Assembly (NCBI GenBank): GCA_018475625.1
Contig: JAAKEZ010000005.1
Location: 62,001 to 126,000 of the forward strand
Length of the DNA: 64,000 nt
From: Candidatus Bathyarchaeota archaeon A05DMB-2
GTDB taxonomy: Archaea > Thermoproteota > Bathyarchaeia > Bathyarchaeales > Bathycorpusculaceae
Direction of reading: 5' to 3'
Part shown: one piece after another, positions 42,353-61,430 of the stretch
Position numbering within the stretch: the stretch's first letter is position 1
How the letters are laid out: every line of letters begins with the position of its first letter
Notes under the pieces: model-generated
The model's input: only the letters and a program-made list of their open reading frames with translations
Databases searched by the model: none
Told to the model about the DNA's origin: nothing
Made by a program: the position numbers and the translations under genes

Positions 42353-42425
42353 GCCGAGGTGAGGTAGCTTGGCAGCCTAGAGGCCTGTGGAGCCTTTTGC
42401 CAGGGTTCAAATCCCTGCCTCGGCC
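42353..42425 (+). tRNA. tRNA-His (GTG)
   Basis: The acceptor stem GCCGAGG/CCTCGGC pairs at all 7 positions, with G-1 at 42352 opposite C73 at 42425, the identity elements of tRNA-His. The D arm is AGG...CCT, the anticodon arm GAGGC-CTGTGGA-GCCTT with anticodon GTG, and the T arm CAGGG-TTCAAAT-CCCTG. No intron and no encoded CCA. A 9-bp copy of its 5' end (AGTGGCCGA) lies 21 bp upstream. Confidence 0.92.
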
Positions 42426-42700
42426 CCTCCGTAGCGGTTTGTACCCAGACGCTAACGAGTTTTCAAGGCAGATCTTTGAACCCAGCCAAAAGGCTCAACG
42501 ACATGCTTGGTGTCGTGTCTTGTGTTCCTATAATCGGGTACCCCACGGATGACTGCGGCATCCCCGGCGCTCAGAAGAAAAGGTGTCCGCTACGCCACAG
42601 ACTAAAGGCGGCTAGAGACTGTTCCGAGCGCTAGTACAGCGAAGCTTCAGGTAAAGGTTTAAGAGTTACGTTTAGGCTTTATCTGCGTCAGGTGTAAAGC
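42426..42700. other. GC-rich intergenic region between tRNA-His and S30e
   Basis: No protein frame is persuasive. A short stem ACGACA/TGTCGT surrounds 42510-42528, and GC-rich segments at about 42550-42640 could fold. A small RNA is possible but no known family was recognised. The S30e promoter (GGTTTAAGAG near 42655) lies at its end. Confidence 0.3.
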
Positions 42701-49620: not shown

Positions 49621-49739
49621 AGGGTTTGCTGAAGCCCTGGACACCAAACTATAGGAGAAAAGAGAATGAAAAATCCGCGATGACCGCTGCAGCCATCACG
49701 ACATTTCAGCCCAGAGCCCACTCAGCCCCTATTCTCTTT
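49621..49739. other. possible structured RNA element, copy 2
   Basis: AGGG-TTT-GCTGA (49621-49632) pairs with TCAGC-CCCT (49722-49730), and CTGG (49637-49640) with CCAG (49711-49714). The 3' strand CCAGAGCCCACTCAGCC is almost identical to copy 1 at 61403. In addition AAAGAGAAT (49659-49667, inside) is perfectly complementary to ATTCTCTTT (49731-49739, just outside), which would form a pseudoknot. The strand cannot be decided. It lies between two genes on the minus strand. Confidence 0.45.
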
Positions 49740-49798
49740 CCCTTTACCGATGATAGCCTGCTAAAAAAAGGGGAAGATGTTTGCTGAATGCTTACAGC

Positions 49799-52483
49799 TT
49801 ATGGTCGTTTCCTGAGCAACAGTAGTCCAATTACAGCAAAGCCTATAATGATTAGAACCACTATGCCTGAGACTGCGGGAACAAAGTACATGTCAGCTAT
49901 GGATTGCGGTGGAGCTTCTGTTGGCGCTGCAGTTGGTTCCGGTTCAACCACGGTAAAGACTGTTTCTTGGCTCGAAGGCCAGTACCCCTTCGTTCCTCCA
50001 AACGTTGCGGTAACATGGTAGGTTCCCGGTATGTCAGGAGTCCAGACTAGATGGAAGTTACCCTTTGAGTCGGTCGCTGCTGTGCCAATTTCGCGGTAGT
50101 TGTTGTTTGCGTCCACCACGCTTACGACGACTTCGACGCCTTTAAAGTTGCTTGGCAAAGGTTGCTGCTGGTATACGTACGACATCCAGTCCGTCATGGA
50201 TTCATCAGAGGAGACAGGAACACCATCTGGGAAACGGGCTGCTTGCTCAGTTTGCTTCGTCCCAGCTGAGATGTCCGTAACTGAACCTTCGATGACCACT
50301 GGGCTGCCGAGCACTAAAGATTTGGGTCCAGCCTGAACAGTCGTGCGGCTTGGCCCTCTTCCAAGAGTGTAGATTTGGTGGTCATAGCTGTTGAAGAAAG
50401 TAGTGTAGCCATCTGCAATTGCAAAGCTTTCACCACTGAATTCGCCGGTTGCTGCGGGCAATGTGTATATTTCAGTTCCGTCGGTTGCGTTGACTGCACG
50501 TGTTAATGCTCCCTTGTAGATGGGTGTTTCAAACGTGTGCTCAGAGGTCACCAAGTAGACTACGCCGTCGCCAATGGCATTAATAAAGGTCGGATAGGGC
50601 CCGGGTACCTGGAAGCCACTGTATGTATCGTTGCCTGGAACGCCGCCGTTGCCGTAAGTCCACAGCACTTTGCCTGTTGACATGTTATAGCAGTACAAGA
50701 TTCCTGAATAAGCGCTACTATAGAGTCGACCGTAAGCTACTACGTTTGAGAGGGTACCTGGTCCGTTGCTGCCGTAATAGTCGAGTGCTGCTTGAGGTTC
50801 TGCTACCTTGATAAGTGCACCCGTTCGCAAGTTCCAGAAGACGAATTGCTGGGTTTGTCTGTAGGACTCGGCGAAGTAGCCTGCTGGGTCAAGTCCTGCG
50901 AATGATATTGTGGTGATGTTGCCTGGGGGGTTGGGAACATAGTTCCACCATAGCACTGAGCCGACTTCCCCTTTTGAAGCGTTGAGGTTAACCGCGAAGT
51001 AGGTGTAGCCCGGGGAGCTTGAGCCCAGACTTGGGTATGATCCGTTTCTGCAGAGCAAGATGTCGCCGTAGATTGCGCCGACGATGGTAGGTGCTGAGCC
51101 ACCGCTCGCAGGCATCGAGTTCCGCCAAGGTATCGATTTATTCTGGGTCGATGAATCAAGCCAGTCATACATTAAGCCTCGGCTTGCATTAATGAACGTT
51201 GTAGAGGTGGTTACGGGTGTAAGTATGGTTTCTTTCACTCCGTTGACGTACTGTGTTGAGGTCACGTTCGTCGTTGTGGTCGTTGTTGTAGTCATAAGGG
51301 TTAGTGCGCCCATTACTCCTTGGCTCCAGAATCTGCTGGAATTCCACTGATACAGATACCAATTTGGGTTTGAGGTAGTGCCGTTGTTGTAGAATCCGTA
51401 CTTTATCAGTTCGCCCATCGGTCCGATCACGTTTGTCCCTGAAGGAACATTAGTTACGTTGAAAACGTTCTTTCCTGTGGCGGCATCGTAGACTTGCCCG
51501 AAGTTGCTCGTGCAGAGAAATGCTGGTCGAACACCGTGATAGTCAGGAGTATCCATGTCCTGGATATAGCCGAAAGAGAATGTCGGAAGGTCGCTTTGTC
51601 TCCAGATTTCTTGGCCAGTAACTAGGTCACGGCAGACTGTGTCGCCACCCATACCAGTTGCAGATAGAGGTTCTCTGTAGTAGAGCCTGCCGTTGAGTAT
51701 AATCGGGTTCACGAATCTTTGAGAGTAAGCTGTCCCTTCAAACCATGTGTCTCCCTGTACGTTCGCGAGGTTTCCTCCGACGACTCCTCCGATTTGACCG
51801 TCAGGCACAGTCCACATAATGTGTGCAGTCTTTGAACCGACGGCGTCGGGTGCAAATTGGCGCTGGTTTGGTCCGTTGCTTCCGCCGTAGCCCGGCATTC
51901 CACTTCCCAGCCAGTTCGAACTGATGACCCACCATAGGCTGTTTTCACCAAAGATCGGGCGTGTCCAGAACTCTGTTGGAAGTGGACTTAGCGGCAGGTA
52001 CGAGATTTGTTCTTCCTGAACCGTAAGAGTGGTTGATGCATTGCTGGGTAGGTATGTATCGTTTATGTAGGCGGAGGTTGGGCTGTGGGGGTAATCGTTT
52101 ACGTTCTGCCCTGGGAAGACGAAGGTGAGGTTGTAGGTTCCAACTTGGTCGGGAGTGAATGAGGCAAGTTGGTTTGATGTTGTGTCCCAGACTGTTTCCC
52201 ACGTCATTGTGGTTTGTTTGCCGTTTGGCGCGGTGATTACGAGTTGGTAGTTGTGGAATCGGTAGTTGTTGGTAACGGCAGTGTCAGCGTAGGTTGGAGT
52301 TAGAAAGAGGTATATGTATGCTGTTTGGCCAACGCCTATAGGGTTTGTACAGGCATATATGTGGGCAAACGTTGGGATCCCCCATGGAGGGTAATGTGCG
52401 TTAGCAGGGGGCATTGCAGCAAGTGAAATGGCAAATGTAAGTATCAGTAAAGCTATTGCAGCGGTTATTTTGCTGTTTTTCAC
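49799..52483 (-). CDS. large secreted beta-propeller (PQQ-like) surface protein
   Basis: An 894-residue protein starting at GTG 52483 with AAGGAGAG 5 nt upstream. It has a signal peptide (KNSKITAAIALLILTFAISLAAM), an Ig-like N-terminal domain, a large PQQ-like propeller (repeats such as GRLYYREPL, AATGKNVFNVTNVP, GRLYSSAYSGILYCYNMSTGKVLWTYG, NATDGTEIYTLPA), an Ig-like C-terminal domain (DSKGNFHLVWTPDIPGTYHVTATF), and a membrane anchor followed by RKRP. Similar proteins are major surface proteins in Bathyarchaeia. The strong promoter (see 52545) suggests high expression. Confidence 0.85.
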   Translation of the reverse strand: MKNSKITAAIALLILTFAISLAAMPPANAHYPPWGIPTFAHIYACTNPIGVGQTAYIYLFLTPTYADTAVTNNYRFHNYQLVITAPNGKQTTMTWETVWDTTSNQLASFTPDQVGTYNLTFVFPGQNVNDYPHSPTSAYINDTYLPSNASTTLTVQEEQISYLPLSPLPTEFWTRPIFGENSLWWVISSNWLGSGMPGYGGSNGPNQRQFAPDAVGSKTAHIMWTVPDGQIGGVVGGNLANVQGDTWFEGTAYSQRFVNPIILNGRLYYREPLSATGMGGDTVCRDLVTGQEIWRQSDLPTFSFGYIQDMDTPDYHGVRPAFLCTSNFGQVYDAATGKNVFNVTNVPSGTNVIGPMGELIKYGFYNNGTTSNPNWYLYQWNSSRFWSQGVMGALTLMTTTTTTTTNVTSTQYVNGVKETILTPVTTSTTFINASRGLMYDWLDSSTQNKSIPWRNSMPASGGSAPTIVGAIYGDILLCRNGSYPSLGSSSPGYTYFAVNLNASKGEVGSVLWWNYVPNPPGNITTISFAGLDPAGYFAESYRQTQQFVFWNLRTGALIKVAEPQAALDYYGSNGPGTLSNVVAYGRLYSSAYSGILYCYNMSTGKVLWTYGNGGVPGNDTYSGFQVPGPYPTFINAIGDGVVYLVTSEHTFETPIYKGALTRAVNATDGTEIYTLPAATGEFSGESFAIADGYTTFFNSYDHQIYTLGRGPSRTTVQAGPKSLVLGSPVVIEGSVTDISAGTKQTEQAARFPDGVPVSSDESMTDWMSYVYQQQPLPSNFKGVEVVVSVVDANNNYREIGTAATDSKGNFHLVWTPDIPGTYHVTATFGGTKGYWPSSQETVFTVVEPEPTAAPTEAPPQSIADMYFVPAVSGIVVLIIIGFAVIGLLLLRKRP

Positions 52484-52509
52484 TTTTTCTCTCCTTTCCT
52501 TTGAATGTA

Positions 52510-59951: not shown

Positions 59952-61253
59952 ATGCCTAATTCAGAAGAAGAAATCTACTCACTTATGTTCAGTTCTTTGA
60001 AGCATCCGCAGCGGCGAAAAATTCTCCGCATGCTGGCGGAAAGGCCAATGACATTCTCTGAACTGCTGGAAGAACTCGCAGTCTCCAGTTCACATTTGAC
60101 GTATCACCTTGAAAATCTCGGAGAACTCGTGGTCAAGCTGGATAACGGGAAATATAAGCTGTCCAGTTTCGGCGAAGCCTCGGTGGCAACTATGAAAGGC
60201 GTGGAAGAAGCACCTACTGCCCCAAAAAGGCATTTTGCAGCGTTTTCTCCCAGATGGAAAACAATCTTCGCCGTCTTAATTATCGCCAGCGTGCTCTTCG
60301 CAAGCATATCCATGATTCAGTACGCTTACATTGCTCAACTGTCCAACAACCATGCGCGACTGCAGGCTGATTTGGACAAGGTGAAAGCAGAGAACGAGCA
60401 ACTGTTAACGTGGAGCAGCCCCACGGAAAAGGTCTTAGACGTACTTCAGGACGTTGTTAAACTCGACATGACCAAGTACAAAGCAACAATGTTAAGCGAC
60501 ACGGTGGAGTACCGCTCCGACCTAGGCGGCGTCGTGGAAGAGCTCGCGAAGTATTCGCTTACCAGCAACGAAAGCAGAATAGACGTGATGCTGAGGTTTA
60601 GAAACGGCCATTTTTCCCGGTATCAGCTGTTCATCGATGAAGGCACACCGCAGTACTCCCAGATTCAACCCTCAGATATTGTTGTCGCCACCAGAGAAGT
60701 CCTTGAAAGGTATGAAGCGTACACGGGCGGCTCCTATCTGGAAGATATGCGCACCTTGATGTCATTTGTGAATGGAACGGAAAGCAATGAAACAATCTTG
60801 AACCACACCAAACTCGTATTCTTAACCTCCGGCGACAGCGTTAGAGTCATGCTTCAGTACACGGAGAACGGCGTCGATTTTTCACCCAAAAGCCTGAGCT
60901 TCGTTTTCGAAAACGGGGTTCTAAACGAAATACTTGACGGCTGGTACTTGTTCACAGTCGAAAACACCAAAGTTAACATCTCCAGCGCACAAGCTGTCGA
61001 AATTGCACGAAACGCCGCAGCAAACTTCAAGTGGATAGCCGACAGCCAAGAAGTCTCCAACTTCACCATCCTGCAACAGCCAGTATCCGTGATGTTCCAC
61101 CCAAGCCCCAGAGAAGGAGGCTTAGCGCTAGTCCCATACTGGTTCGTGACACTTTACCTTGACAAGGTTTACCCAGGTGGAGTTAACCGCATAAACGTCG
61201 GCGTCTGGGCTGACACCGGAGAAGTCGCGCAAATCAACACTGCAGGCGGCTAA
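59952..61253 (+). CDS. membrane-anchored winged-helix regulator with extracellular sensor domain
   Basis: A 433-residue one-component regulator. Residues 1-80 are an ArsR-like winged helix (FSSLKHPQRRKILRMLAERPMTFSELLEEL, then SSSHLTYHLENLGELV). A membrane helix spans about 104-122, a short coil 126-152, and residues 155-433 are extracellular, ending in a PepSY-like pattern (AQAVEIARNAAANF, YWFVTLYLDKVYPGGV, VWADTGEVAQI). It is a complete version of the gene cut at position 1. DNA binding at the membrane in response to an outside signal is inferred. GGTGGG lies before ATG 59952. Confidence 0.82.
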   Translation: MPNSEEEIYSLMFSSLKHPQRRKILRMLAERPMTFSELLEELAVSSSHLTYHLENLGELVVKLDNGKYKLSSFGEASVATMKGVEEAPTAPKRHFAAFSPRWKTIFAVLIIASVLFASISMIQYAYIAQLSNNHARLQADLDKVKAENEQLLTWSSPTEKVLDVLQDVVKLDMTKYKATMLSDTVEYRSDLGGVVEELAKYSLTSNESRIDVMLRFRNGHFSRYQLFIDEGTPQYSQIQPSDIVVATREVLERYEAYTGGSYLEDMRTLMSFVNGTESNETILNHTKLVFLTSGDSVRVMLQYTENGVDFSPKSLSFVFENGVLNEILDGWYLFTVENTKVNISSAQAVEIARNAAANFKWIADSQEVSNFTILQQPVSVMFHPSPREGGLALVPYWFVTLYLDKVYPGGVNRINVGVWADTGEVAQINTAGG

Positions 61254-61312: not shown

Positions 61313-61430
61313 GATGGTGAAGGTTTGCTGAGGCTCTGGATGTGCTAAGTTACTTTGGGAAGGGAACTAGCTTCAAAGCCTGAGCTTTCAGGTTTTACAC
61401 ATCCAGAGGCCCACTCAGCCCTTAACCATC
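61313..61430. other. possible structured RNA element, copy 1
   Basis: A long stem: GATGGT-g-AAGG (61313-61323) pairs with CCTT-a-ACCATC (61420-61430); a TTT bulge; GCTGAG (61327-61332) with CTCAGC (61414-61419); an asymmetric loop G/GCCCA; CTCTGGATGTG (61334-61344) with CACATCCAGAG (61398-61408). The apical part holds two small hairpins, one being CCTGA-GCTT-TCAGG (61379-61392). It follows the membrane-regulator gene by 60 bp. The transcribed strand is not known. Confidence 0.5.

Follow-up and report, generated by a model that had tools for sequence, protein, structure and literature searches.

Two elements in a 64,000-nucleotide stretch of the genome of a Bathyarchaeota archaeon (hereafter, the window) belong to a family of structured RNAs that, as such, has no counterpart in Rfam 15 or in the open-access literature that we searched. 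The elements are 105-130 nt long, are present in up to ~36 copies per genome and, for the most part, are located directly 3' of genes for ~850-aa secreted proteins with an Ig/PQQ-like propeller and a C-terminal membrane segment ending in RKR or RKK. Comparison of the sequences establishes a conserved, covarying stem, P2, which displays a variable hairpin, P3, together with a pyrimidine-rich strand; by the same kind of comparison, this strand is antisense to the Shine-Dalgarno (SD) sequence, the spacer, the start codon and the first codons of the same surface-protein family. We consider it likely that the element is an antisense translational regulator residing in the 3' UTR, and that it probably targets the whole family in trans.

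The two copies in the window, at 61313-61430 (copy 1) and 49621-49730 (copy 2), had been singled out in a first-pass annotation for their shared outer arms, which are indeed present in these places and match as described: the arm pattern CCAGAG-N0-2-CCACTCAGCC is present at exactly two places of the window, compared to 0.00 occurrences expected (it never appeared in any of 100 shuffles). The common fold proposed for the two copies stands for the minus strand but not for the plus strand. Copy 1 folds strongly on both strands (z of -5.5 and -6.3 relative to shuffles), and copy 2 reaches -46.2 kcal/mol (z -2.4) on the minus strand vs -27.3 kcal/mol (z -1.2) on the plus strand, because C.A mismatches of the plus strand turn into G-U pairs on the minus strand. 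A plus-strand structure was rejected given the poor fold of copy 2, and the functional strand of the element is the minus strand of the window, so that the TTT bulge described earlier is, in the RNA, an AAA bulge. The compensatory change noticed in the lowest helix (AAGG/CCTT vs AGGG/CCCT) is real, yet it accounts for a minor share of the covariation in the family. The complete difference between the interiors holds for these two copies but not for the family, given that copy 2 has relatives throughout the genome that are 93-98% identical over ~120 nt, with copy 1 being the outlier.

Copy 2 is a typical family member, matched by the covariance model R1 at 49622-49735 on the minus strand (140.8 bits, E = 1.5e-30; this copy is part of the R1 seed), in the 3' flank of the gene at 49799-52483. 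All its parts lie on the minus strand: the 5' arm of the main stem P2, GGGGCUG-AGU-GGGCUCUGG, at 49711-49729 (assigned from sequence and covariation), the 3' arm, CCAGGGCUU-CAGC-AAA-CCC, at 49622-49640, the variable hairpin P3, GUGAUGGCUGCAGCGGUCAUCGC, at 49677-49699 (from the fold), and the pyrimidine-rich strand, UUUUUCAUUCUCUUUUCUCCUAUAGUUU, at 49646-49673 (from complementarity to starts), the reverse complement of which, AAACTATAGGAGAAAAGAGAATGAAAAA, reads as an SD sequence, a spacer and a start codon. The linked gene, on the same strand, encodes an 894-aa Ig/PQQ-propeller surface protein with a signal peptide and a C-terminal membrane segment ending in LLLLRKRP; its matches to Big_3_5 (E = 7e-6) and PQQ_2 (E = 1.5e-5) are both below the gathering thresholds. 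Between its stop codon and copy 2 lies a conserved tract, TTCCCCTTTTTTTAG (49761-49775, minus strand), in the same layout that is seen behind most genes of the family. The predicted target is the translation start of the linked gene, CAAAGGAAAGGAGAGAAAAA-GUG-AAAAACAGC (52472-52503, minus strand), with a duplex energy of -23.4 kcal/mol. In the same window, searches with ARAGORN and Rfam detected a single RNA gene, a tRNA-His (GTG) at 42353-42427.

The consensus of the family is GGG-GCUG-[ARW]-RGGCUCUGG ... CCAGAGCCY-CAGC-[AAA]-CCC, with the interior consisting of P3 and the pyrimidine-rich strand. Stem P2 contains one A-rich 3-nt bulge on each strand, the two being separated by four near-invariant pairs. 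RNAalifold run on the model-fitted alignment yielded 8 pairs only, a low count that we attribute to the variable interior; next, the arms were re-aligned by their anchors alone, that is, without gaps and without reference to structure. In this alignment, 1054 of the 1390 cells of the upper stem, P2c, are Watson-Crick pairs vs 838 in shuffles (139 diverse copies), and pairing is 0.83 in register vs 0.24-0.55 with one arm slid (91 copies). Pair 16-19, for example, switches wholesale between GC (69 copies) and AU (41 copies), GU accounting for 21 copies and AC for 5. The ratio of GU to AC is 130:63, or 0.67 compared to a shuffled mean of 0.57, and none of the 1000 shuffles reached 0.67. This excess of GU, which is moderate, favors selection on the element as RNA of the minus strand. 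The pairing of upstream purines with the interior tract into a P1 pseudoknot, or an HDV-like nested pseudoknot, suggested by the copies from the own genome, was not upheld across lineages: the purine-pyrimidine pairing showed no consistent excess (z 2.2 in the own genome and -1.3 in the genus Bathyarchaeum).

The first-pass annotation had proposed a new RNA family, to be checked with a covariance model and against Rfam, and this idea was borne out: searches of related genomes with the model brought up numerous homologues, the helices covary, Rfam has no match, and the similarity proved to be neither protein-coding nor explained by a mobile MITE. The own genome (2.48 Mb in 110 contigs; the window corresponds to C103:62001-126000) contains ~12 further copies detected with the 5' motif and DNA search, several of which sit at contig ends, apparently because the repeats broke the assembly. 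The model R1 was built from 11 own-genome copies, with copy 2 included and copy 1 left out, and recovers copy 1 at E = 3.7e-5 although it is absent from the seed. R1 matches were detected in 32 of 61 relatives (E<=10), with strong matches reaching other genera and one further family of the order; across the class, 42 of 257 genomes were positive at E<=1e-3, all from two families of one Bathyarchaeia order. Two genomes assembled as one contig have 17 (G048) and 36 (G164) R1 copies, respectively. A second model, applied to a sample of the phylum, detected the element in 20 of 398 genomes, none of them outside these two families. We also scanned 84,980 GTDB species genomes with an exact DNA pattern, independent of the models, and obtained 67 stretches; 65 carry the label Bathyarchaeota (including one record under an older name, Miscellaneous Crenarchaeota Group). 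The remaining two are a Verrucomicrobiia contig, which the model did not confirm, and a contig of the MAG 'Tenericutes bacterium M17C-02' (JANKMU010000033.1, our locus L192), on which two elements are located; M17C is also the label of Bathyarchaeum assemblies, and, the element scores being identical to those of Bathyarchaeum copies, this is probably a mis-binned archaeal contig.

In Rfam 15, no family reached the gathering threshold over the elements of the window or 12 related loci, and the permissive matches, for example, to microRNA and snoRNA models, were dismissed as far below gathering. Neither Rfam 15 nor the open-access literature searched yielded an RNA regulator or a structured RNA class specific to Bathyarchaeia.

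The suspected link to surface proteins turned out to be strong. In five genomes, 78 of the 96 elements (among the matches listed) lie just downstream of a gene of one family and on the same strand. In G048, 14 of 16 elements are behind a family gene and 14 of 15 family genes are followed by an element (again, among the matches listed), the element lying 31-51 nt past the conserved end of the gene, on the same strand. The gene family and the element are found in nearly identical sets of genomes; in G012, family genes are present and the element was not detected, and G010 has three elements and no family gene at 1e-100; at least two of these elements follow the end of a reading frame of the LLLRKR* type. 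A CCCCYTTTTTT(AG) tract ~20 nt past the stop codon is conserved behind most family genes, including the one in the window (49761-49775). Possibly, this C/T tract is a terminator or a processing site, and its T-tract could end most transcripts ahead of the element; in Bathyarchaeum, where the tract is flanked as CUCCC...GGGAG, it could form a small hairpin.

The genomic distribution also bears on the possibility that the element acts at the DNA level, whether as a non-autonomous mobile element of the palindromic type (MITE, REP or IS200/IS605-like hairpin) or as a site of recombination that reshuffles surface genes. Archaeal and bacterial MITE and REP palindromes are short, dispersed, hairpin-forming intergenic repeats, and the dispersed copies, their sharp 3' boundary, the copies at contig ends and the solitary copies all resemble this pattern, as does the fact that the elements of the own genome are 90-97% alike vs 72-77% for the genes. 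Unlike such palindromes, the element keeps a fixed place, downstream of the genes of one family and in their orientation, at a near-constant spacing and in distant genera, and its interior tracks the gene starts. Furthermore, copies with the same genes on either side recur in related genomes and sister species, the helices covary in a GU-tolerant manner with GU exceeding AC, and neither a terminal duplication nor a transposase was noticed on informal inspection. A DNA-level role, which also leaves the antisense match unexplained, thus appears improbable, and, on the grounds of position, synteny and covariation, we rejected a mobile element or its remnant (MITE/REP/IS200-605) as the main explanation. 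An integron-type cassette (attC) was rejected as well, the sites lying mostly behind one gene family and being scattered around the genome.

The antisense match is specific to the lineage. In the own genome, the complement of the tract is AAACTATAGGAGAAAAGAGAATG and the leaders of the family are AAAGGAGAAAAGAAA-ATG; in the genus Bathyarchaeum, the complement is TGAAGGAATGAAAAAATGAAAAAA and the leaders are TTGAAGGAATGAATAA-ATGAAAA. By sequence comparison, the strand in the 3' flank is complementary to the SD and start region of its own linked gene. Along the own mRNA (53 linked genes), complementarity peaks only at -18..+10, with a mean run of 7.7 vs 4.39 elsewhere (bin s.d. 0.18; largest other bin 4.98), and the single best site falls within -30..+20 in 53% of the 53 genes vs ~2% expected. 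The tracts discriminate family starts from other SD-bearing starts at the same loci with an AUC of 0.78 in six own-family genomes and 0.92 in the genus Bathyarchaeum, the start codons having been chosen by a rule that favors SD-like leaders and the controls treated alike in this comparison. Plain duplex energies separate these classes of starts only modestly (-19.2 for family starts vs -17.3 for the others), and we therefore adopted statistics of contiguous runs with shuffles. The excess over dinucleotide-shuffled tracts corresponds to z of 3.7-24.6 in seven lineages, values that overstate independence and are not to be read as probabilities because the copies are phylogenetically related, and the starts of other genes remain near the shuffles. 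In the hold-out genome G164, the starts of which had not been used before, the values are 8.29 vs 7.13 (z 7.6), and the leaders (GGAGAGA) and the tracts (UCUCUCC) have changed together. Lineage-mixed duplexes are 3-7 kcal/mol weaker; for example, f1/f1 and g43/g43 have energies of -19.8 and -19.7 kcal/mol vs -13.1 and -16.4 kcal/mol for the mixed duplexes. Part of the complementarity comes from composition, with purine-rich starts facing a pyrimidine-rich strand, given that reversed tracts rise at the start as well, to 6.3.

Some of the observations above would also suit a structured 3' UTR element that serves mRNA 3'-end formation or stability and has no antisense role, in which case the upstream C/T tract would be the terminator and the pyrimidine strand a protein-binding or exosome-blocking feature. 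The fixed position 30-75 nt past the stop codon, the conserved CCCCYTTTTTT tract and the very stable stem fit this scenario, but it leaves unexplained the peak of complementarity at start codons, the tracking of lineage-specific start sequences and the antisense strand in solitary copies, and we consider it unlikely. Another alternative is that the interior is a decaying copy of the start of the gene in inverted orientation, or else that it provides a small antisense gene with its ribosome-binding site, and that gene duplication carried it along. In one genus, 23 of 27 copies have a tract whose reverse complement spells SD-spacer-ATG, vs 3.6 in shuffles, and the 5' strand of P3 in this genus reads AUGAAAAA. 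Nevertheless, 76 of the 133 antisense ORFs terminate within the element, 1-26 codons on, and decay would retain neither a lineage-matched tract nor a covarying stem in solitary copies, so that such an origin seems very improbable. A protein-coding interior or antisense ORF was rejected in the absence of a conserved frame or length.

In the genus Bathyarchaeum (interiors L092-L105), the 5' strand of P3, AUGAAAAA, mimics the gene start, and P3 could accordingly engage the antisense strand in competition with the target. In terms of duplex energies, the elements are predicted to bind their own genes no better than the paralogues, so that targeting looks family-wide and action in cis gains no specific support.

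Solitary copies, which are not located behind a family gene, nearly all retain the antisense strand (z 1.8-15.9), which fits action in trans. The exception is copy 1 (z -3.7). These elements often adjoin genes for HTH regulators: a divergent TrmB-like gene in four genomes and an Lrp-like gene in two; in two genomes, solitary elements lie by ArsR/DUF7347-type genes that are 51% identical, with a different arrangement in each. The solitary elements next to HTH genes include L047:5352-5473, L126:4738-4852, L135:4377-4503, L112:1222-1347, L140:3507-3628, L141, L100:7091-7213 and copy 1, which adjoins the HTH gene at 59952-61253. Copy 1 (61313-61430, minus strand) preserves the stem, with the 5' arm of P2, AAGGGCUG-AGU-GGGCCUCUGGAUGUG, at 61398-61423 and the 3' arm, CACAUCCAGAGCCU-CAGC-AAA-CCUU, at 61320-61344, both on the minus strand and assigned from sequence, but it has lost the antisense strand. 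It is a divergent member, a dead member or one with another target; being solitary and lacking the antisense strand, the copy at the headline coordinates is the least typical of the family.

Under the mechanism that we propose, the element would be transcribed and would act as part of the 3' UTR or as a small RNA, either freed from this UTR or expressed from stand-alone copies; the pyrimidine strand would pair with the start regions of the family and block ribosome binding, so that the family would be repressed in trans and, possibly, the own mRNA in cis. Stem P2 would probably be a stability module or a protein-binding handle. A further, speculative extension, which we put forward only tentatively and deem somewhat doubtful, is that each member of a 10-40-gene family carries, past its stop codon, an RNA that represses the starts of all its paralogues. 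The expression of one gene would thereby silence the rest, which would make an RNA-based mutual-exclusion or dosage circuit for the surface of the archaeal cell, and solitary copies controlled by HTH regulators would be its master repressors.

In its putative working mode, the element appears closest to the 3' UTR of the Staphylococcus aureus icaR mRNA, in which a UCCCCUG motif pairs with the SD sequence of the same mRNA and blocks ribosome loading (PMC3868564), in cis or in trans according to the authors of that study (PMC3868564). The likeness lies in a 3' segment, in our case in the putative 3' UTR, that is complementary to the SD region of the same mRNA. Unlike icaR, which involves one gene, one bacterium and a 7-nt motif, the Bathyarchaeia element is a covarying RNA family with one copy behind each of 10-40 archaeal paralogues, and its complementarity also spans the start codon and the first codons. 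The hok 3'-5' fold-back is named in the icaR work (PMC3868564). In hok, translation of the mRNA is prevented by pairing of its 3' end with its 5' region; this is a toxin-antitoxin system in which the antisense RNA is a separate molecule. A sequence or stem shared between hok and our element is not evident. Among archaea, sRNA162 of Methanosarcina mazei masks the ribosome-binding site of a target mRNA (PMC3510493). It is similarly an archaeal RNA with a single-stranded region that covers the ribosome-binding site and start of the target, but it is a single-copy sRNA gene with unrelated targets and neither lies behind nor covaries with a multigene family.

Bathyarchaeia are among the most abundant archaea on Earth, and, for the element family, a target, a mechanism and a set of genes can be predicted. 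If the proposed function is correct, few cases would show as directly how a 3' UTR element and the translation start of the gene family that carries it evolve together across genera; the element would also be a candidate for an RNA circuit over an expanded, probably variable repertoire of cell-surface proteins. The element occurs in genomes of the lineage of Bathyarchaeum tardum, which is cultured (PMC10477458), and is therefore open to experiment.

Several loci show additional features. The 2.7-Mb genome G164 (C1) encodes ~40 surface-protein paralogues, some of them in tandem arrays in which an element comes after each gene; they form a candidate variable-surface repertoire. Tandem elements, two or three close copies, are present at G161:C9:259007-259359, G033:C37:12606-12871 and G164:C1:1407952-1408400. 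A match to the CRISPR-DR7 repeat (L122:4539-4575) is located close to an element of another genome. Finally, in two genomes of the genus Bathyarchaeum, a solitary element (L105:3947-4075 and L156:3845-3971) is kept between genes for an HD-domain protein and a thymidylate kinase; its sequence has diverged, yet a TATA-like stretch upstream of it is conserved.
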